31,327 nucleotides of DNA from a virus, in the IMG/VR virus record IMGVR_UViG_3300030419_000396, positions 1 through 31,327 of that record. One strand, written 5' to 3'. Each line of letters begins with the position of its first letter. Position 1 is the stretch's first letter. Of this stretch, positions 14,661-28,261 are shown in pieces. The notes under the pieces were generated by a model. It saw only the letters and a list, made by a program, of their open reading frames with translations. It searched no databases and was not told the DNA's origin. A program made the translations under genes and the position numbers.

Positions 14661-15064
14661 TTGAGATTATCTCTTGCTACATTTTTTGATTTTTCAAAAC
14701 TTCTCATTGCTCCAAGTCCTAATAAAGACATTACTAATGTTATTAATCCTTCTACTTCAAGCTGTGGTGGTACAACATCAGGCATCCATATGCCAGTACC
14801 CCAAGTTAAAATTGGACCTACAAAGAACTGCCATAGCAGCCCAAGGCAACAGACCCACATGATTGCAGGGCGAGCTCCAGAAACAAATAAGCTAGGATGT
14901 TTTGCTTGTTCTTTGTTTACTTCTATTTGTGATTTAGCTAATTCTTGTGCATGTTTTTCTGCCATAGTAGATAGGTCATGAGCAAGTTCCATTTGTTTGT
15001 CTTTATCTTTTATAAACTTACCAAGTAATTTACTAGCAGGTCCTATTAGTGCAGTTAATGCCAT
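14657..15064 (-). CDS. Holin, three-TM family
   Basis: The 135-residue product starts MALTALIGPASKLLGKFIKD, then has an amphipathic charged helix (residues 20-55). Two clear membrane segments follow, around 64-86 (RPAIMWVCCLGLLWQFFVG) and 101-120 (EGLITLVMSLLGLGAMRSFE). This order, with the G-A-R-P motif before the first clear segment, matches the 3TM holin family of phages and gene transfer agents (PF11351). Holins open the inner membrane to let the endolysin out. The endolysin of this phage is on the other strand. It starts at a TAATG junction with the methyltransferase gene. Confidence 0.75.
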   Translation of the reverse strand: MALTALIGPASKLLGKFIKDKDKQMELAHDLSTMAEKHAQELAKSQIEVNKEQAKHPSLFVSGARPAIMWVCCLGLLWQFFVGPILTWGTGIWMPDVVPPQLEVEGLITLVMSLLGLGAMRSFEKSKNVARDNLK

Positions 15065-15675
15065 TATTCTTTCTCCTTTTTTATTAAATTAGCATGAGTA
15101 TATTCTTTACCCACACATATTATATATATTTTTAAATGTTGAAAATTATTCCAAATATTTTTTATCTTATCTGACCACCAATTATGATTAAACACAGATA
15201 CATGTACATTCTGTCCTTTAAACTTACCTTCTTTAAAATGTTTTAAAGCAAGTTGGCAAGATATATTTAAGAATACTGTGTTTTTACTATGAGATAATAT
15301 TTCTGTTAATACCCAATCTAAATCTTGTTCTGCTATATGTTCTAATACATCTGTACATATTACAATATCATATTTTTTATTAGGTAGTTTATTATATTTA
15401 GGATAAGCAGGGTCATACAAATCAAATGAATCTAAATTAAGTAATTCTTGTACAGGTTTTCTTATACCTAATTCTTTACATCTTCTTTTCATATAAGGAA
15501 CTGCTTTACCACAACCATAATCTAATAAAGTTTTACATTTATTTTCTTCTACAATTTTCATTAATGTAGTTACAAGAGGTATTAAACTTATACCTTTAAA
15601 CTTACCTTTTTCTTTATGTAATTTTTTATAAGAATTTATTAATTCATAATAATCTTCTGAAGGTTGTGTTAACAT
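15064..15675 (-). CDS. Class I SAM-dependent methyltransferase
   Basis: The 203-residue product has motif I TLLDYGCGKAVPY (49-61), which binds S-adenosylmethionine, and a later acidic/post-core motif DIVICTDVLEHI, standard for class I small-molecule or sugar methyltransferases. The substrate cannot be read from the sequence. It lies directly downstream, through a TAATG junction, of a glycosyltransferase/methyltransferase fusion, so a sugar or glycosylated product is a reasonable guess. No DNA-methylase motif (DPPY/NPPY) is present. Confidence 0.75.
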   Translation of the reverse strand: MLTQPSEDYYELINSYKKLHKEKGKFKGISLIPLVTTLMKIVEENKCKTLLDYGCGKAVPYMKRRCKELGIRKPVQELLNLDSFDLYDPAYPKYNKLPNKKYDIVICTDVLEHIAEQDLDWVLTEILSHSKNTVFLNISCQLALKHFKEGKFKGQNVHVSVFNHNWWSDKIKNIWNNFQHLKIYIICVGKEYTHANLIKKEKE

Positions 15676-17972
15676 TACAAATCCCCTTTAAAAGATTGTT
15701 GTTTTTGTTTATATCTATTAGATGTTTTCCATAAAGCAGAAACTAAAGTTCCTTTACCATGAAAATTAATATCCATTTCCATAGGTGATTCATTAAAATA
15801 TTTTTCACAGTCTTGTGCTAATGCAAGTAATTCTCCTGTTGTCCAGAACTCTTGTTTACCTACAGATACTTTAAAGTATTTAGGTCTAGGTTGTTCGCCT
15901 TCTGCACCTGTTGTTTCTTTCTTTTGTTCTTCAGTAGGTTCTTCCATATTGGAATCAAAACCAAACAAATCAAAGAAACGAAAACCTAATGTATGCATAA
16001 TACCTATAGCTCTCATAGCTGCACAAGTACCACCTGTTATTAATGTAGTACCTTCTGGTAAACCTAAATCTTTATTTAAAGTTACTATATTATTTTGTAT
16101 ACCTTTCTTTTGTTCTTCAGGGTCACGTAATGATTCTGTAAATGCATGCCATCCCCATATGGTTGCTTTCTTTTCTATTAAATAATCAGTAACAGAAGGG
16201 TCAGTCATAGATGCAACAAAAAACTTTGTACTAGGGTCTACTGTTTTAAACAAATCTTTTCTAACTACACCATGTGTACTTGTACCTGTAATAGGTCTAG
16301 GGTCTAATACAACACATGCCCAAGGTTTAATACCATGCTCAAGTAATTTAGGATAAGAATGTTTAACAGCTACTACCTTTGCATTAGGATTATTTTTAAT
16401 TGTAGCATGTAGTTCTTTATAATCTGTGTAAGGTCCACCTGATACTAATATACATTTATAATTATGTAAAGGAAATTTCTCTAACCATTTATCAATCTTT
16501 TTAAAATTTGTTTTTATATTATTTCTAATATAATCTTTAGGCACACAATCTCTAGGATTAACTTTAATAGGTACACTAAATAAATGTTTAGAAGGAGCAG
16601 GTAATTTATCATCATGTAATATAAATAATAAATGTGTATGCCCACCTTCTCTTACTTTATCTTCACTAGGTAATATATTATTTTTTATTTTTTTATCTAA
16701 TTTTTCTTTAACTTTATTTGTACCTTTATATTTATCTTCTACTTCATTACCATCTGTATCTTTAGAAAAGAAATTATCCATAACAACTACAGGTACATGT
16801 TTCAAACAATCATAATCACTTTGTTTTGTTTGAATACTATCACCACCACCTATAAAAGCATAGTCTATATCTAGTAAAAATTCAAATAAATTTTTAGCTT
16901 TTAATGTTTCTCTTGTATTACCTTTCGTTAAAACAAAATGAAATTCTTTATTTTTTTCTTTCATTTTAACTTTAAATTCTTCAAGTCTTTTTTCTACAGC
17001 TTCTAAAGTATTATGTGCCTTAACATTAAATTCTTCTTTATCTGTTTCTATTGTAGCATCTTCAAACAAATCAAAACCATAGTATACAACTCTATCTGTA
17101 TTTTCAAAAGCAGCTAGTGCCATTTCTATTGCACGACCACCATTCCATGTACCAGTTTCTAATATAGTTTTAGGTTTAAAATGTCTAATAAGTTCAGCAT
17201 TTTTTTGATACCTAGATGGTAGTATATCTTGGGATACTTTATCTTTTGATAATTCAAATACACGATTACCTTTTGAATCTCTTAAAGGTACAATATTAGA
17301 ATTAGATACACCTTGTAAATGAACAATATAATTTGATATTTGATTTTCAATATTATGAATTTTTAAACCATGTGCTTTATATAAGTTTAATAATCTTTGA
17401 ATAACAAAACCATCATGCCATTCTCTATAGGTAGTAAGTTCGTCATTCATATATATTCTACGCAAATCCCACAACAAATCTAATGGTGGTTTTTTATTTA
17501 GATTAAAAGCCATAAAAGACATACCTTCACCATGTACTATATCAGCACTATCAGGGAGCATATCTAACATTTCTTTATATGTTAATCTTTTATTAGCATA
17601 ACAATCTATATCAATCCATACTAACCAACCTGCATCTTTATTATTTTCTGTTAATGTAAATGCATAGTCTGTTAATGCAAACATTTTATGACACCATCTA
17701 ATAGCATCAAGCTTTGCATTATAAGGTATCTGTCCATCTTCAGTACCATTATGTTTCGTATTATCTTCTTTAAATTTTTTATATTTTTTATTATCTTCAA
17801 GATTAGAATACTCAATAGCTTTATCTAATGAATATTTATCAGCAGGAAAGTTATGATAATAAGCTTTTACTTTTAAAGTAGGCTCCCAATTTTCCTGTAT
17901 AGATTTAAAAAATATATTACCAAATCTATTATATAAGTCTTCATTATAAGATGTAACAAAGTTTATTTTCAT
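15675..17972 (-). CDS. Three-domain glycosyltransferase / methyltransferase / DUF115 protein
   Basis: The 765-residue product appears to have three domains. Residues 1-235 look like a nucleotide-sugar glycosyltransferase with a DxD-type motif (GWLVWIDIDCYAN, D121 and D123). Residues 255-400 are a class I methyltransferase-like fold, motif I ILETGTWNGGRAIEMA, with YYGFDLFE. Residues 505-675 resemble DUF115 (Maf/MptE-like): ILVSGGPYTDYKE, KVVAVKHSYPKLLEHGIKPW, VVLDPRP and a Gly-rich helix GGTCAAMRAIGIMHTLGFRF. DUF115 proteins include motility accessory factors linked to flagellin glycosylation. The fusion suggests one enzyme that builds and caps a sugar on a protein or surface. ATGA junction before it, TAATG after. 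Confidence 0.65.
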   Translation of the reverse strand: MKINFVTSYNEDLYNRFGNIFFKSIQENWEPTLKVKAYYHNFPADKYSLDKAIEYSNLEDNKKYKKFKEDNTKHNGTEDGQIPYNAKLDAIRWCHKMFALTDYAFTLTENNKDAGWLVWIDIDCYANKRLTYKEMLDMLPDSADIVHGEGMSFMAFNLNKKPPLDLLWDLRRIYMNDELTTYREWHDGFVIQRLLNLYKAHGLKIHNIENQISNYIVHLQGVSNSNIVPLRDSKGNRVFELSKDKVSQDILPSRYQKNAELIRHFKPKTILETGTWNGGRAIEMALAAFENTDRVVYYGFDLFEDATIETDKEEFNVKAHNTLEAVEKRLEEFKVKMKEKNKEFHFVLTKGNTRETLKAKNLFEFLLDIDYAFIGGGDSIQTKQSDYDCLKHVPVVVMDNFFSKDTDGNEVEDKYKGTNKVKEKLDKKIKNNILPSEDKVREGGHTHLLFILHDDKLPAPSKHLFSVPIKVNPRDCVPKDYIRNNIKTNFKKIDKWLEKFPLHNYKCILVSGGPYTDYKELHATIKNNPNAKVVAVKHSYPKLLEHGIKPWACVVLDPRPITGTSTHGVVRKDLFKTVDPSTKFFVASMTDPSVTDYLIEKKATIWGWHAFTESLRDPEEQKKGIQNNIVTLNKDLGLPEGTTLITGGTCAAMRAIGIMHTLGFRFFDLFGFDSNMEEPTEEQKKETTGAEGEQPRPKYFKVSVGKQEFWTTGELLALAQDCEKYFNESPMEMDINFHGKGTLVSALWKTSNRYKQKQQSFKGDL

Positions 17973-18757
17973 ATCATATAATCCTTATTAGCATCTAGTA
18001 TACCCTGCATTTGTAACCATCTTGCATCATTACACCATTCAATAGCATATTTATTATCTTTATCTCTTCTAGAACCCCAGTCTTTAAACCAAGGACCACC
18101 TGTTGTAAAGTGAACATTCTTTGCATCTATATCTACAGAGGAATGATTATCTAACCAATTCCATTCTTCTGGTATTGTACCTATATCTGCTTCTTTATCT
18201 GGTAACCATTGAAATGTATGTAACCATCTGCCTGATTTAGTGTTTACTTCTTGAGGTGTAAGTTTTAAATTTACATCATGCCCACAATTAAACATAATTA
18301 AACTAGACCAATTCTTTCTAGGATAAACATGCTGTTCCTTACCATCCATTTTAGTTTTATTTGTAGGCTCATACTTATGTTTAACTACATGTATAGGGTA
18401 ATAATTATCTCTGCACATTTCAAATAATTCAGATACATCTGCCCTTACATACATATCACAATCCATATATAATGCTTGTCCTTCATACATATTTAATGCA
18501 GGAATTAAAAATCTAGTAAAACTAAATTGTGTAGAAAAAGGTTTACCATCTATTTCATCATAGTCTTGTCCACCTATTGTATTATGTTTCCTAGTATAGA
18601 TACCTATCTTGGTAAGTATATCTCTTCTTAAAGGTATTACACGCACAGCTTTCGTAGCTATTCTTTCTAATGAAAACTTTAATACTTCATATGCAGTATA
18701 TTCTTTAGGGTCATAGCCTACATAAACTGTATTGACCATTTGTTTTTTTAATAACAT
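17969..18757 (-). CDS. Glycosyltransferase, GT8-like
   Basis: The 262-residue product has the family's N-terminal strand (NTVYVGYDPKEYTAYEVLKF), the hydrophobic run before the metal site and the DxD motif in ALYMDCDMYV (D99, D101). GT8-type enzymes move a hexose from a nucleotide sugar using Mn2+ held by DxD. A late HF/TGG/W block (NVHFTTGGPWFKDW) also fits. The first ATG is preferred because AAGGAAAG lies just upstream in a TAATG junction; an in-frame ATG six codons later is possible. The acceptor is unknown. Confidence 0.75.
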   Translation of the reverse strand: MLLKKQMVNTVYVGYDPKEYTAYEVLKFSLERIATKAVRVIPLRRDILTKIGIYTRKHNTIGGQDYDEIDGKPFSTQFSFTRFLIPALNMYEGQALYMDCDMYVRADVSELFEMCRDNYYPIHVVKHKYEPTNKTKMDGKEQHVYPRKNWSSLIMFNCGHDVNLKLTPQEVNTKSGRWLHTFQWLPDKEADIGTIPEEWNWLDNHSSVDIDAKNVHFTTGGPWFKDWGSRRDKDNKYAIEWCNDARWLQMQGILDANKDYMI

Positions 18758-19185: not shown

Positions 19186-19593
19186 TTAATTAATTTTAAT
19201 CTTTTTAGGTTTTTGTTCTTCAGGTATCATTTGTTTAAGAGTTAATCTTAATATACCTTCGCTGAATGTAACGTCTTCAACGTGTAACGTATCGTGTAGA
19301 ACAAAGTCCCTAGTAAAAGACCTCTTTGCTATACCTTTATGTAAGTATTCAATATCATCTCCTCTTACATAATCACCTTTTATTGTTAAATGATTTTCTT
19401 TAACAACAATATCTAAATCATCTTTCTTAAATCCTGATAAAGCAAACTCTATAATAAAAGTTTCTTCATCTTCTTTTATAATATCATAAGGTGGATAGTT
19501 TGTATCTGTCCCTCTTATGTTATTCATTACATCAAACAATCTATCAAAGCCAATAGCTTGTCTTGAGAATGTATCTACTTCAAAATTAACCAT
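19186..19593 (-). CDS. Small heat-shock protein, Hsp20/alpha-crystallin
   Basis: The start at 19593 follows AAGGAGA with a seven-base spacer, giving 135 residues. The N-terminus (FDRLFDVMNN) resembles IbpA-type proteins. The alpha-crystallin domain spans about residues 33-120: YPPYDIIKEDEETFIIEFAL, SGFKKDDLDIVVKENHLTIK, HKGIAKRSFTRDFVLHDTL and FSEGILRLTL. The IxI anchor is present near the end (KKIKIN). These chaperones hold unfolding proteins in the cytoplasm without ATP. Small Hsps are known in marine cyanophages and pelagiphages. The gene has its own promoter, a structured leader and its own terminator, so it forms a single-gene unit. Confidence 0.9.
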   Translation of the reverse strand: MVNFEVDTFSRQAIGFDRLFDVMNNIRGTDTNYPPYDIIKEDEETFIIEFALSGFKKDDLDIVVKENHLTIKGDYVRGDDIEYLHKGIAKRSFTRDFVLHDTLHVEDVTFSEGILRLTLKQMIPEEQKPKKIKIN

Positions 19594-19643
19594 ATTTATC
19601 TCCTTATTAAGCAAGTTAAAATGAGTCCTTTATTGGCACTCAT
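19591..19643 (-). promoter_or_regulatory. Putative ROSE-like RNA thermometer in the hsp20 leader
   Basis: From a start site predicted at 19643 the leader is 50 bases and holds two hairpins. The first, at the very 5' end, pairs AUGAGU(G)CC with GGACUCAU around AAUAAA (19643-19621). The second pairs CUUGCUU (19615-19609) with the Shine-Dalgarno AAGGAG (19605-19600) around the loop AAU: C-G, U-A, U-G, then a bulged G (19612), C-G, U-A, U-A. Pairing of a UUGCU-type element with the Shine-Dalgarno, with a bulged G, is the hallmark of ROSE thermometers of small heat-shock genes. Pairings are seen in the sequence; heat sensing is inferred. Confidence 0.6.
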
Positions 19644-19809: not shown

Positions 19810-20121
19810 TTATATTAATCCTAATTCTAGTTTACCACTTTCTGAAATCATATCTTGTGTCCAAGGTGGGTCCCAAGTAATACCAACTTTAACTTTCTTA
19901 ACTTCTTCTAATGTTGCTACTGCATCTTCTATTTGTTTTGGTAATTCTTGTGCTACTGGACAATGTGGTGTTGTTAATGTCATAAGAATATCTACATCTT
20001 TATTTTCTTTTATATCTATATTATATATTAAACCTAAATCATATATAGAAATAGGTATTTCAGGGTCATATACTTTTTGTAGTACATCTATAATATTTTC
20101 TTTTAAATTTTTATTAATCAT
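19810..20121 (-). CDS. DUF59 / SufT-like iron-sulfur assembly protein
   Basis: The 103-residue product is a single MIP18/DUF59 domain: VYDPEIPISIYDLGLIY (residues 17-33), the Cys-bearing block MTLTTPHCPVA (C54) and ITWDPPW near residue 85. Members of this family (SufT, PaaD, MIP18) help mature or deliver Fe-S clusters. Phage copies are known in marine viruses. It sits in a TAATG junction after the ribonucleotide reductase gene. The class II reductase has no Fe-S cluster, so another client is likely, either a host enzyme or the Cys-rich nuclease at 23704-24567. Confidence 0.85.
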   Translation of the reverse strand: MINKNLKENIIDVLQKVYDPEIPISIYDLGLIYNIDIKENKDVDILMTLTTPHCPVAQELPKQIEDAVATLEEVKKVKVGITWDPPWTQDMISESGKLELGLI

Positions 20122-22043
20122 TATATATCTACTAATTCACACGACCCACTTTTGCATGCTAACTCCTGTGAACCTCTTGTATTATCTTCTGTTTCATAAT
20201 CTTGTAGTTTATTCCAGTTAATATCTTTAGGCATTTTAGATTGTAATTCATTGTATTGTACTTCATCTATATCTTGATAAGGTGCTTGCTGATATGTATG
20301 GTCAGAGAAAGGTAAGAAAGATATACCAGATAGTGTATCAAAGTTATCCCAACACCAATTACCTACATTAATCCATTCGTCTTCCTTAACAGATATAGTT
20401 ACTGATGGTTTATGTTCACACCAATGCTGTGCATAACACTTCCATATCTCTAACTGTTCAATAGCAGTCATAGTATATCTAAAGATAGCATTAGAATCTG
20501 CTTTCATAGGAAAAGAAAAGACAGAATTATTAGGTTGCATAACATCATCTTCACAAGGTATGCCTTGGTCTATCATAAACTGTGTTAATGGGTCTTTCTT
20601 ATCTCCTCTAACTGTTCTAATATAATATGGATTATGTCTAGCATGAATACCACTAGCAGAGTCAACTAATTGACTAACTGTACCAGAAGGTTTGACACAT
20701 GTAATAGCTGTTGATTGTGGTATACCTAATTTCTTTGACCATTCTTCATTTGTTATTACAGCTTTGTATCTCATCTTACCTAATACATCTGGTAGAGTCG
20801 TCCTCATTCTAGACAATATACTATTGTCCATAATACCTGTAAGAGATACACCAAGCAGTCTTTCTTCTTCTGTATTTGTTTGCCATCTTTTACGTAGGTA
20901 ACCAAAGTTAGTTAGTGTAGCTTGTATTGTACCTAGTATCGTAGCTACTTCTATCTTATTATGTAATGACTCCTCTGTATCTAATGGTCTCACTACTACT
21001 TCTGTAAGATTACAAAACTGATTAGGTCTTAATATAATTTCACTACAAGGATTAGTACCAAAGTCCCAATCACCATTACGTCTACCATTCTCTCTAGCTT
21101 TAGCTTGAGCAGATTGCCTATTAAAGATACCACGTTCACCAGATTTACTTTCATATAATGCTAACCATTCTTTCATGAAGATACCTGCATCTGGTTTCTC
21201 TGTGTAAGCTACAGAGTTATTAGCTAATGCTCTTTCTGGATTAGTTTCCCACCATGCACCAGACTTGGCAACTCTTAATCTCTGGTCTGATAAATTAGAC
21301 AGAGATATAAGAGCTGACCTACGCACACCACCTACAACCACAACCTCACCTGTTTTACAAACAATATCATGACACTCCATAGAAGATAGCTTTCTACCTT
21401 TAGCATTTTTAAACTTATCAATAGTAAAATCAAATAGATTAACTAAAGGTTGAGGACCACTTGCTCGACCACCAAATGTTTTTAATCTAGCACCTGCAGG
21501 TCTAACTTTAGTTACATCTATCTTTGGTATTCTATTTGTATAAAGATAAGATATTAAATCCTTAAATGCTCTTGCCCAACCTTCTTTAGAATCATTAACA
21601 GAAACAACATCATCTGTTTTTTCAAACTCTCTATCTGGTATAGTAGGTAACTTATCTATGTACTGTCTTTCAACAGAAAAACCTACACCTGTACCATTCA
21701 TAAGTATATATAATACTTCATCAAATGCTTTTGGATTATCAATAGGTATATAAGAACAATTATATCCTGATATATTTTCTCTTTCTAATGCAGCACCTGC
21801 TGTCATTAAAGCTCTCATAGAAGGCATAACATTTAATCCTATAATATTATCTTCTATTTTTCTCCATACTTCGCTATCTATTTCCACACCTAAATTTTTC
21901 TTTAAATGTATTTGGAAAAAGTTAGTTAATCTTGTAACTGTTTCTATCCATGTCTCTCTTCTACTTTCATCAGGTAACCAACGAGCATATCTTGATGCAT
22001 GAATAAAGGTTTGATACTCTGTTGGTAAATAGTTATTCCCCAT
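20121..22043 (-). CDS. nrdJ: Class II (B12-dependent) ribonucleotide reductase, monomeric type
   Basis: The 640-residue enzyme makes deoxynucleotides using adenosylcobalamin. Against the Lactobacillus leichmannii enzyme the key residues are in place: C96 (GYNCSY) and C344 as the active-site redox pair, C333 as the thiyl cysteine and E335 in NPCSEI, and the C-terminal pair C630/C635 (ACKSGSC). The spacing 333-335-344 equals 408-410-419 in the reference. It uses no oxygen or iron centre, but needs B12. Upstream it overlaps DUF3310 by 11 bases. The glutaredoxin further up could serve as an electron donor. Confidence 0.92.
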   Translation of the reverse strand: MGNNYLPTEYQTFIHASRYARWLPDESRRETWIETVTRLTNFFQIHLKKNLGVEIDSEVWRKIEDNIIGLNVMPSMRALMTAGAALERENISGYNCSYIPIDNPKAFDEVLYILMNGTGVGFSVERQYIDKLPTIPDREFEKTDDVVSVNDSKEGWARAFKDLISYLYTNRIPKIDVTKVRPAGARLKTFGGRASGPQPLVNLFDFTIDKFKNAKGRKLSSMECHDIVCKTGEVVVVGGVRRSALISLSNLSDQRLRVAKSGAWWETNPERALANNSVAYTEKPDAGIFMKEWLALYESKSGERGIFNRQSAQAKARENGRRNGDWDFGTNPCSEIILRPNQFCNLTEVVVRPLDTEESLHNKIEVATILGTIQATLTNFGYLRKRWQTNTEEERLLGVSLTGIMDNSILSRMRTTLPDVLGKMRYKAVITNEEWSKKLGIPQSTAITCVKPSGTVSQLVDSASGIHARHNPYYIRTVRGDKKDPLTQFMIDQGIPCEDDVMQPNNSVFSFPMKADSNAIFRYTMTAIEQLEIWKCYAQHWCEHKPSVTISVKEDEWINVGNWCWDNFDTLSGISFLPFSDHTYQQAPYQDIDEVQYNELQSKMPKDINWNKLQDYETEDNTRGSQELACKSGSCELVDI

Positions 22044-22451: not shown

Positions 22452-22729
22452 ACATATTTTAAATCTGGTGAGTGAATAACTTTGTATGCAAAACTTCTTG
22501 TGTATGTAGGACTTAATCCTGCATGCTCACAAACTTGCTCAAAGTTATCACACGTAACACCAACACTACAAAAAAACCATGCTATTGCTTTATCTTTATT
22601 TACTTTACTTTTTTTACTTGTAGCATCTAATAAAGCTTGTAGTATAACTGATAAAAATAAACCTCTTTCAGGAAATTCTTTATTATTATAATCTACATCT
22701 AAAAATATATCAATGGTCTTTTTCGTCAT
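22424..22729 (-). CDS. 101-residue conserved phage protein
   Basis: The product has a block AIAWFFCSVGVTCDNFEQVC then EHAGLSPTYTRSFAYKVI (about residues 49-85). It resembles small proteins of alphaproteobacteria and their phages with the pattern A-x-x-W-[FL]...F-x-x-[VI]-C-x-x-A-G-L-[DS]-P-x-x-x-R, thought to be helix-turn-helix-like. The basic end (RQRIKKMI) fits DNA contact. It overlaps the previous gene by 20 bases. The function is not known. Confidence 0.6.
   Translation of the reverse strand: MTKKTIDIFLDVDYNNKEFPERGLFLSVILQALLDATSKKSKVNKDKAIAWFFCSVGVTCDNFEQVCEHAGLSPTYTRSFAYKVIHSPDLKYVRQRIKKMI
22685..22713 (-). promoter_or_regulatory. Weak promoter candidate inside a coding region
   Basis: TTGATA (22713-22708) and TATAAT (22690-22685) are 17 bases apart, inside the first codons of the 101-residue gene. 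One -35 mismatch and the AT-rich background make a chance match possible. It is listed because the spacing equals that of the other minus-strand promoters. Confidence 0.3.
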
Positions 22730-22925
22730 TTACTATATGCGTTAACATATCCATAGCATCTTTTGCTTCAGATGCTTTATGTACTAATTCAATAACATCT
22801 TCTACAATCTTGGGATGTTCACCTACACCCACAGGATTGTTAAGATGTATCTTAATATTTGCTAAAGCTTTATCTCTCTCTGCTGTATAGTGAGACATAA
22901 CTGCTTCTAATATATGTGTTTTCAT
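22710..22925 (-). CDS. 71-residue conserved phage protein
   Basis: The product starts [20 protein letters not shown] and has [19 protein letters not shown] (residues 26-44), a pattern I recognise from small T4-like and cyanophage proteins (HIL-x-A...NPVGIGEHP...). It is helical and acidic toward the C-terminus. No function is established. It shares an ATGA junction with the GIY-YIG gene and overlaps the next gene by 20 bases. Confidence 0.65.
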
Positions 22926-23710
22926 ATTCCTTCCTTTATTAATTTAGCTTCACTCATTTTTCTTTTAGTTTCTTCTGTAAGTTTTGTTCCTATAAGAGCT
23001 TCACTTATTTTTCTTTTAGTTTCTTCTGTATGTCTTGTTCCTAATCTAGCTTCACTTATTTTTCTTTTAGTTTCTTCTGTAAGTTTTGTTCCTAATTTAG
23101 CTTCCCTCATTTTTATTTTACTTTCTTCTGTATGTTTTGTTCCTAATTTATATTCCCTCATTTTTCTTTTACTTTCTTCTGTATGTTTCTTACCATAGAA
23201 GTTATTTTTTTCTCCTAATCTAGCTTCACTCATTTTTCTTTTAATTTCTTCTGTATGTTTTGTTCCTAATCTAGCTTCCCTCATTTTTCTTTTACTTTCT
23301 TCTGTATGAGGTGTATAACTTTCAAGAGGTCTATAAAACTTACCACCAACATATGAATTATAAAATGCAGGCTTATCACTACCTTCTACAGTAGCAGTAA
23401 GAACATTCCACTTTACTTGATAGTACATCTCATAGTAACGTAAACTTCTCTTGTTTTTATACTCTGCTATTACTTCAAATGTAAAATATTTTTTACCTAT
23501 CTTTTTAATGTCTTCATTTAAAGATTTACAAGAACCCATATAGGTTTGCCATTTAGATTCTTTCTTATTTTTTCCTGTGTAATATTGTTTACAACCAACA
23601 TAAGCTTTTTTTATTTTAGTATTAGTTATTATATAAACAAAACCAAACTTATCTGCATTAGGAATAAAAGGTTTATCACTTTTATAAAATATCCAATGAT
23701 TATTTACCAT
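22922..23710 (-). CDS. GIY-YIG endonuclease with seven NUMOD3-like repeats
   Basis: The 262-residue product has an N-terminal GIY-YIG nuclease core: GFVYIITN (23-30) and [11 protein letters not shown] (34-44) stand for GIY and YIG, and YYEMYYQ (92-98) carries the probable catalytic Glu. After residue 134 come seven repeats of the NUMOD3 type ([16 protein letters not shown]) at residues 135, 152, 176, 193, 210, 227 and 244. NUMOD3 units are helical DNA-binding modules of phage homing endonucleases. The gene overlaps the upstream gene by seven bases and the downstream one by four, unusual for a selfish free-standing endonuclease. No intron is apparent. Confidence 0.85.
22925..23308 (-). repeat. 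Seven tandem 51-base coding repeats (NUMOD3)
   Basis: The 3' half of the endonuclease gene is seven near-identical units with a 51-base (17-residue) period. A 21-base (seven-residue) insertion encoding EKNNFYG stretches the second-to-third interval to 24 residues. Variation is mostly H/L before TEE, S/T/I within TEE-x, and M/I in the middle. The reading frame is kept throughout. Confidence 0.85.
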
Positions 23711-24567
23711 TCTAATATTTCCTCTACTCTAGGTTCTTTATAAACTTGTGTAAGATATGTCGTACCTTTTTCATATTTAAAAGCACGAAGTCCTTGACCA
23801 TTGTTAGCATCAGACCAACACTCTCTTTTATGAGGACAAAAAACACAGCTAATAGCAAGCTTCCTATTCCCACTACTACCTTCAGGAATATCACTATAAC
23901 ATCTATCAGGAACTGTTTTAGAATCCAAAGCACCTTTGAGATATTGTACTCTTTCTTTTGCATTTATCATCTCCATATCATGCACTCTTGTTAGTGCAAT
24001 GTTACCATGTTGTTTATCTATTGCTAAAAAGTAAGCTTCTTTAACACCATTACCTTCAGAGTATGCAGATATTTGTGCTATATAACCAAAAGGGTCATCA
24101 TCAGCTAGTCTATTATTAGCAAACTTTTTAAATGCAAAACCACTAGCACTTTTACAATCCACTAACACACCATCTATTTTACAATCTTGATGTCCTTTAA
24201 TACCTTCTACCTCTACTTCTTTTTGTTCTTCTGTAACTGTATGTCCTGCTACTCTAGATAAAAGTATAAGTAAATCTTCTAGTATATGTCCATATAAAAA
24301 TTTAATTCTTGTTGATGGAGCTAAAGGTCTAGCTTCTGAATTAGAATGTTTGTCATACCATAACTGTCTTGTAGGTTTACCTATAGAAGACAAAGATAAT
24401 TTTCTTTGTTTCTGTGGTTGTTCATTTAAAACAGTTTTAATATTATTAGTTACATTTTTTGTAAACTCTTTTAAATGTTTTTCTAAATCTTCTTCATTTA
24501 TTTGATTAATAATACTTGGTTCAAATAAGTTATATATATCTTCTACTAATGTATCTATTGTTTTCAT
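23704..24567 (-). CDS. PD-(D/E)XK nuclease, Cas4/RecB-like, with four-cysteine cluster
   Basis: The 287-residue product has the RecB-family motifs in order: GHILED (E97), [10 protein letters not shown] (D128, D132), LVDCKSAS (D137, K139) and YIAQISAY (Q165, Y169; the QxxxY motif). A C-terminal block holds C223, then C241-x2-C244-x5-C250, a layout reminiscent of the Fe-S cluster of Cas4/AddB-type nucleases, although there the first Cys usually lies N-terminal. It probably trims DNA ends in replication, recombination or host DNA breakdown. The start lies ten bases after the T-tract of the ssb terminator and no Shine-Dalgarno is visible. Confidence 0.8.
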
Positions 24568-27727: not shown

Positions 27728-28261
27728 TTATACCTCATTTCCCCAGACATCCCAACCTTCTGTTTTTTGTCTAGCAAATAATTCTATTCTTGATAAATCT
27801 CCACACAATTCTACAATTTTATCTCTAACACAGTTAGGTTTTTTAGAATGACTTTCTATTGGTTCATATATTATTTGATGCACACTACTAGAAACTCTTT
27901 TTGGTTTACCTTTAGTAGCAAGTAAACATATTTCATTGTTTGCTCTTGTCCAATAACCTAATCCCCAAAATAAACTATCACTTTTTTTATTCTTTTTCAT
28001 CCAACTAAAACCACAAGTCTTATATGTAAAACCCCAATCTGTTATTGTTTTTAATCCTTGGATTAAACAAGGATATGTTACCCATAAAAATAATATACAA
28101 TTATCTTTTGATATAGTTGATACAGGTAAATTACTTATATCTTCTTCACTCATACATGAGTAATGTTTTTCAGGGCTTCTATCTTTTCCTTTATCAGAAT
28201 AAGTTTTAAAAGACCAAGGTGGGTCTGCATATATAATATCATATGTTTTATTTGGAAACAT
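27728..28261 (-). CDS. MT-A70-family adenine N6-methyltransferase
   Basis: The 177-residue product starts with the catalytic DPPW motif (YDIIYADPPWSFKTYSDKGK, D13-W16), followed by HYSCMSEEDI and LFLWVT, then GFTYKTCGFSWMKK and NNEICLLATKGKP, in the order of MT-A70 enzymes. These methylate the N6 of adenine in DNA or RNA. No matching restriction enzyme is seen, so it is an orphan methylase, perhaps protecting phage DNA. It begins in a TAATG junction with the primase-helicase gene and has a consensus promoter about 30 bases upstream. Confidence 0.88.
   Translation of the reverse strand: MFPNKTYDIIYADPPWSFKTYSDKGKDRSPEKHYSCMSEEDISNLPVSTISKDNCILFLWVTYPCLIQGLKTITDWGFTYKTCGFSWMKKNKKSDSLFWGLGYWTRANNEICLLATKGKPKRVSSSVHQIIYEPIESHSKKPNCVRDKIVELCGDLSRIELFARQKTEGWDVWGNEV

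Follow-up and report, generated by a model that had tools for sequence, protein, structure and literature searches.

A putative free-standing SegE-type GIY-YIG homing endonuclease gene with seven NUMOD3 units at the cas4/p71 junction of an uncultured virus

The Seg endonucleases of phage T4, including SegE, are encoded by free-standing genes located between conserved phage genes, and overlapping upstream open reading frames have been recorded for several of the free-standing endonucleases of T4 (PMC2988022). The T4 segE gene lies between inh and uvsW and its target is uvsW. I-TevI is intron-encoded and attaches its catalytic domain to a modular, 'beads-on-a-string' C-terminus composed of one helix, a zinc finger and a helix-turn-helix. 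In other phages, one position (HEG-islands, T5orf172) hosts homologous, same-class or different-class endonucleases, and repeated DNA-binding modules are known to recombine (PMC10448857). The gene analyzed here encodes a nuclease of the SegE family (PF19835) and is likewise free-standing; it differs from segE in its location behind a Cas4-like exonuclease gene, in a C-terminus made of seven NUMOD3 units and in that cleavage is predicted. Its modeled catalytic fold resembles that of I-TevI (Z 8.1) and its C-terminal DNA binding would be similarly modular, although the gene lies outside any intron, as the initial annotation had stated, and the seven NUMOD3 units take the place of the mixed I-TevI modules. 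The site behind cas4 resembles the HEG-islands in hosting different endonuclease classes and in the recombination of repeated binding modules; the difference is that the latter were reported for T5orf172 genes with zinc fingers in other phages. A search for a homing endonuclease adjoining Cas4 in podoviruses found no paper within the searchable literature. We read the gene as a free-standing homing endonuclease gene of a known type, at a cas4-end hotspot that is not named in the literature searched.

We analyzed a 31,327-base record of an uncultured virus, probably a marine virus of bacteria; 'the window' refers to this whole stretch of DNA. The DNA polymerase and Cas4-like proteins were nearest to those of pelagiphages HTVC104P/115P (40-48% identity), and roseophages were also among the nearest for the Cas4-like protein, in the same identity range. 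The gene order on the minus strand is polymerase, a 187-aa ORF, a weak single-strand-binding match, the Cas4-like exonuclease, the GIY-YIG gene, p71, p101, a MazG-like/nucleotide-kinase-like ORF and ribonucleotide reductase. The PHROG name 'NAD synthetase' (phrog_447) was dropped as an annotation artefact. The features of the locus are listed below.

23704..24567, minus strand: Cas4-like exonuclease gene (phrog_1990, E 2e-45); the insertion hotspot is anchored at its 3' end
22922..23710, minus strand: candidate GIY-YIG homing endonuclease gene, free-standing, 262 aa, ATG start (ORF, Pfam, PHROG)
23704..23710, minus strand: 7-nt overlap ATGGTAA, in which the last Trp codon and the stop of cas4 give the nuclease start codon and Val2
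23348..23659, minus strand: SegE-type GIY-YIG nuclease domain, aa 18-121, with Y26, Y37-V-G39, E94 and Y117-N118 (Pfam PF19835, conserved columns, AlphaFold2 model)
22937..23308, minus strand: array of seven NUMOD3 units (PF07460, position-weight scan, tandem repeat finder, predicted helices)
23264-23308, 23213-23257, 23141-23185, 23090-23134, 23039-23083, 22988-23032 and 22937-22981 (plus-strand coordinates): the NUMOD3 cores
23186..23206, minus strand: seven-residue spacer NNFYGKK between units 2 and 3 (24-residue spacings also occur in relatives' arrays)
22922..22935, minus strand: AGGAAGGAAT-ATGA, ribosome-binding site and start of p71, the same in the empty allele L095 (AGGAAGGAAT)
22710..22925, minus strand: p71, encoding a 71-aa protein (phrog_1811), the downstream edge of the insertion

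The 262-aa protein matched the PHROG 'homing endonuclease' group (E 1e-34) and Pfam SegE_GIY-YIG PF19835 over aa 18-121 (E 9e-25; 87.7 bits against a curated cut-off of 25). Y26, Y37, G39, Y117 and N118 were invariant in an alignment with 29 relatives, and the putative catalytic Glu, E94, was present in the window and at least 90% conserved among the 29 aligned proteins. E94 and N118 were paired with E75 and N90 of I-TevI by motif order, and the fold match agrees with this pairing. The AlphaFold2 model reached a pLDDT of about 80-92 over aa 1-100, and its top match among solved structures was the I-TevI catalytic domain 1ln0 (82 residues, 2.4 A); a 5hmC-specific restriction endonuclease and UvrC ranked next. 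A phmmer search of PDB sequences with the GIY-YIG protein returned chance matches only, so the structural link was taken from the predicted model. Motif B of GIY-YIG nucleases contains a conserved Arg (R27 in I-TevI) that has no evident counterpart in the window protein; its first 87 residues contain no Arg of any kind, and the family consensus has none there either. K41 and K49 are both nearly invariant in the family (29 relatives), and one of these conserved Lys residues may replace the motif B Arg. The dN/dS of the nuclease domain in the relatives was about 0.13-0.3.

The reading of this gene as a GIY-YIG endonuclease with seven NUMOD3 units, already proposed in the initial annotation, was confirmed by PF19835, PF07460 and the tandem repeat finder. 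Pfam NUMOD3 PF07460 matched C-terminal to the nuclease domain with an E value of 1e-28 (99.5 bits against a cut-off of 20.4). The seven 15-residue cores, starting at aa 135, 152, 176, 193, 210, 227 and 244, scored 38-44 bits each on a weight matrix compared to a maximum of 8.8 for shuffled family proteins; the matrix was built from 50 seeds that included the window's own units, and the independent confirmation comes from Pfam and the tandem repeat finder. The units are spaced by 17 residues, with 24 between units 2 and 3. Tandem Repeats Finder reported a period of 51 with 4.9 copies and 88% matches at 22940..23188, in agreement with the 51-base units described previously; calling these near-identical was somewhat generous, the cores being 80-96% identical to one another at the DNA level. 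The AlphaFold2 model of the array consists of seven helices 17 aa apart, predicted at low confidence (pLDDT 40-69), and each unit presumably binds DNA. An ORF on the plus strand (22914..23198) was dismissed as a mirror of the repeat array.

Seven is the maximum number of units for this nuclease, with 0-4 in the 56 distinct relatives. It had been suggested that a few copies are more usual, and this holds for the nuclease's own clade and for a generic GIY-YIG sample (0-6 units, mode 3, n=55) but not for proteins with NUMOD3 arrays, where 18 of 62 in an array-selected sample had 7-9 units; ten were counted in one other protein by the position-weight scan. Seven units are ordinary among long NUMOD3 arrays. 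The relatives do not present a single conserved copy with the same repeat number everywhere, nor has the catalytic Glu been lost in the window.

The synonymous difference among the seven units (pS 0.026) was the lowest among the arrays of at least four units that we measured. The 58 comparison arrays, also of at least four units and drawn from the array-selected sample, had a median pS of 0.61, and the lowest among them (0.16-0.17) were arrays at the same cas4 site; the L001 group, with arrays of four units, fell between these and the window (0.05-0.07). Recent duplication of the units, as initially proposed, is well supported by the contrast between the window's pS and this median. The pN among the units was 0.137 against the pS of 0.026, and changes from the consensus unit were 22 non-synonymous to 1 synonymous, these not being independent events. 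We do not claim diversifying selection on the units from these values, as a core offers only some 7.7 synonymous sites and the units have changes in common. A degenerate DNA search of viral contigs with the window's inter-unit linker gave no match, so the birth of the seven units is not visible in orthologues.

Among the relatives, the same nuclease domain is followed by zero to four NUMOD3 units, by other C-termini or by nothing at all. The arrays nearest to that of the window belong to a second GIY-YIG-like endonuclease (L045, L047, L048: MNKESFVYLWYD...), which occupies the same position behind cas4 and has 7-8 NUMOD3 units, but whose nuclease domain is different, has no Pfam match and shows a weak PHROG homing-endonuclease match (E 3e-4). 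The linker GKFYRPxExYxP before the array is common to both genes. Together with the similarity of the arrays, it suggests that an array was exchanged between two endonucleases sharing the cas4 site. In distant relatives (L155:6852-7652) the same nuclease domain is found with another array, of units of the type DPEERKKMSE, which had zero synonymous differences in the three units compared.

Comparison of the locus with phages that lack the gene, as the initial annotation had recommended, located the insertion point at the cas4/p71 junction. Scans with the nuclease, Cas4 and p71 yielded 107 distinct junctions, some of them fetched with the nuclease itself, so that the following counts represent states and not frequencies. 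Of the distinct loci whose cas4 was at least 80% identical, 20 were empty, 8 carried this nuclease, 2 this nuclease and an HNH endonuclease, 6 HNH alone and 1 the second GIY-like gene with HNH. At 60-80% cas4 identity, 14 junctions were empty and 30 contained this nuclease; below 60%, this nuclease was present in 16 and the second GIY-like gene in 4, and 6 had no insert, with p101 directly after cas4. The occupied relatives contain the same nuclease with other C-termini, HNH, the second GIY-YIG-like endonuclease, or a tandem of two endonucleases. The gap between cas4 and p71 was 10-19 nt in the empty alleles (L082, L084, L087, L095 and others).

The window and the empty allele L095 share GAATGGTA(A)...AGGAAGGAATATGAAAAC. 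The empty allele reads gaatggtaa, AGGAAGGAAT and atgaaaac in uninterrupted succession, and identical letters flank the insert in the window. The AGGAAGGAAT-ATGA stretch also supplies the final codons of the nuclease, including its stop; the nuclease overlaps p71 by 4 nt. The overlaps of 7 and 4 bases, exactly as first described, exist because the insertion preserved the ancestral junction whose letters are seen in L095. In practically all relatives, the start codon of the nuclease is placed 6-10 nt ahead of the cas4 end, whether the following gene is p71 or p101; the element is anchored to the cas4 end, and the upstream overlap is a family trait. Being family-wide, it reflects no special adaptation to the window's operon, and the earlier proposal that the gene had adapted to the operon was not upheld. 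Several of the empty alleles (L140-L150 region) have a cas4 about 66% and a p71 80-91% identical to those of the window, a contrast that marks the junction as an exchange boundary even without an endonuclease.

We compared the divergence of the nuclease with that of cas4. Between the window and the L205 group, cas4 was 65% identical at the nucleotide level (pS 0.62, pN 0.29) and the nuclease domain 88% (pS 0.25, pN 0.08), while between the window and L015 the order was reversed, with cas4 at 94% (pS 0.21) and the nuclease domain at 83% (pS 0.42). Under vertical descent, the rates would have to be opposite in the two comparisons, and the reversed ranks indicate that the nuclease moves between lineages independently of its flanking genes. 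The cas4 data rejected the window and the nuclease's nearest neighbours as a group (p 1.5e-6). On the nuclease tree, an AU test did not reject the cas4-defined clade of nine (p 0.63); topology alone is thus no proof of transfer, and the argument is that of the reversed divergences. The window and L092 were nearly identical over about 520 nt from mid-cas4 into the nuclease domain, including 120/120 nt across the junction. Past this tract, identity dropped to about 85% and then to background in the C-terminus, and p71 was again about 96% identical. We read the tract as a recent exchange.

On these comparisons it is very probable that the gene inserted between cas4 and p71, in a phage with pelagiphage and roseophage relatives, is a free-standing homing endonuclease gene of the SegE-type GIY-YIG class. 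What the sequences themselves display is the domain composition, the insertion polymorphism, the kept junction, the module replacement, the youth of the units and the divergence reversed relative to cas4; for the 262-aa protein, cutting, target position and homing, as well as any exclusion function, are proposed from knowledge of the family. The endonuclease would be translated by coupling to cas4, and its seven-helix array would bind the uninterrupted cas4/p71 junction of a co-infecting relative. The cut by the GIY-YIG domain would follow close by, probably either within the conserved 3' portion of cas4 or spanning the junction, and recombinational repair templated on the occupied genome would transfer the gene with its flanks to the rival. 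The exclusion of rivals is expected as a side effect of homing. The C-terminal DNA-binding part would be a replaceable module: a recently amplified NUMOD3 array in the window, different modules with a similar nuclease domain in other alleles. A further reading, which we consider possible but less likely than not, makes the 3' end of cas4 a landing site common to homing endonucleases of several classes, which would replace each other and recombine there, and where duplicated NUMOD3 units would be quickly diversified by selection at DNA-contacting residues. If so, one nuclease domain would have been repeatedly re-aimed at new alleles of the cas4 site, with the window as the freshest product. One base-resolved junction offers a dense natural series (empty, one nuclease with several C-terminal modules, unrelated nucleases, tandem pairs) with which one can ask how homing endonucleases shift DNA specificity at an unchanged landing site and what share each NUMOD3 unit has in recognition.

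We evaluated the possibility that the nuclease is a recruited weapon, retained for cutting co-infecting relatives or satellites, with homing incidental. The many close relatives with an empty, uncut junction are potential targets, and there are precedents in the intron endonuclease of phage PhiPA3, which helps interference competition (PMC11620839), and in nuclease domains reused against satellites (PMC10448857). The patchy presence, the turnover of nuclease types at one site and the replacement of binding modules nevertheless fit a selfish element that brings no conserved benefit, and the locus shows neither a fusion nor a conserved partner gene suggesting a dedicated role; we consider this explanation unlikely. 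It is more doubtful still that the endonuclease is decaying or inactive, with homing lost and the array growing neutrally. The array differences are almost all non-synonymous (22 vs 1, not independent) and the expected motif B position lacks the Arg, as a decaying gene might show, but the frame is intact, E94 and N118 are kept, all seven units retain the motif, and the nuclease-domain dN/dS in relatives is low enough (as given above) to argue against decay. The absence of the Arg is family-wide and extends to alleles that are still mobile.

The tight overlaps with the genes on either side, and the example of I-TevI, which doubles as a repressor (PMC2988022), would be in line with vertical inheritance of a domesticated operon gene that was lost from relatives and might, for instance, regulate the expression of cas4 or p71. 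We regard this as highly improbable: L095 and many other loci lack the gene and still have an intact p71 start and ribosome-binding site, different nuclease families are present at the same site, and the divergence ranks are reversed relative to cas4. The homing endonuclease reading remains the one we prefer.

Several other genes of the window were observed, all on the minus strand. A gene for an MT-A70 type adenine methyltransferase (27728-28261) could affect nuclease targets. A B12-dependent (class II) ribonucleotide reductase (20121-22043) is directly followed by an iron-sulfur cluster assembly gene (PF01883; 19810-20121), and a gene for an Hsp20 small heat-shock protein is located at 19186-19614. 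At 15064-18757, a glycosyltransferase-like gene (family 8, slightly below the cut-off) lies beside genes for a 765-aa MptE-like-domain protein and a methyltransferase, possibly forming a sugar-modification cluster. Some relatives (L100:5162-5917, L047:1652-2395) have an additional gene, absent from the window, between the MazG-like gene and ribonucleotide reductase; by eye, it combines a terminase-small-subunit-like N-terminus with a T5orf172/GIY-YIG-like C-terminus.
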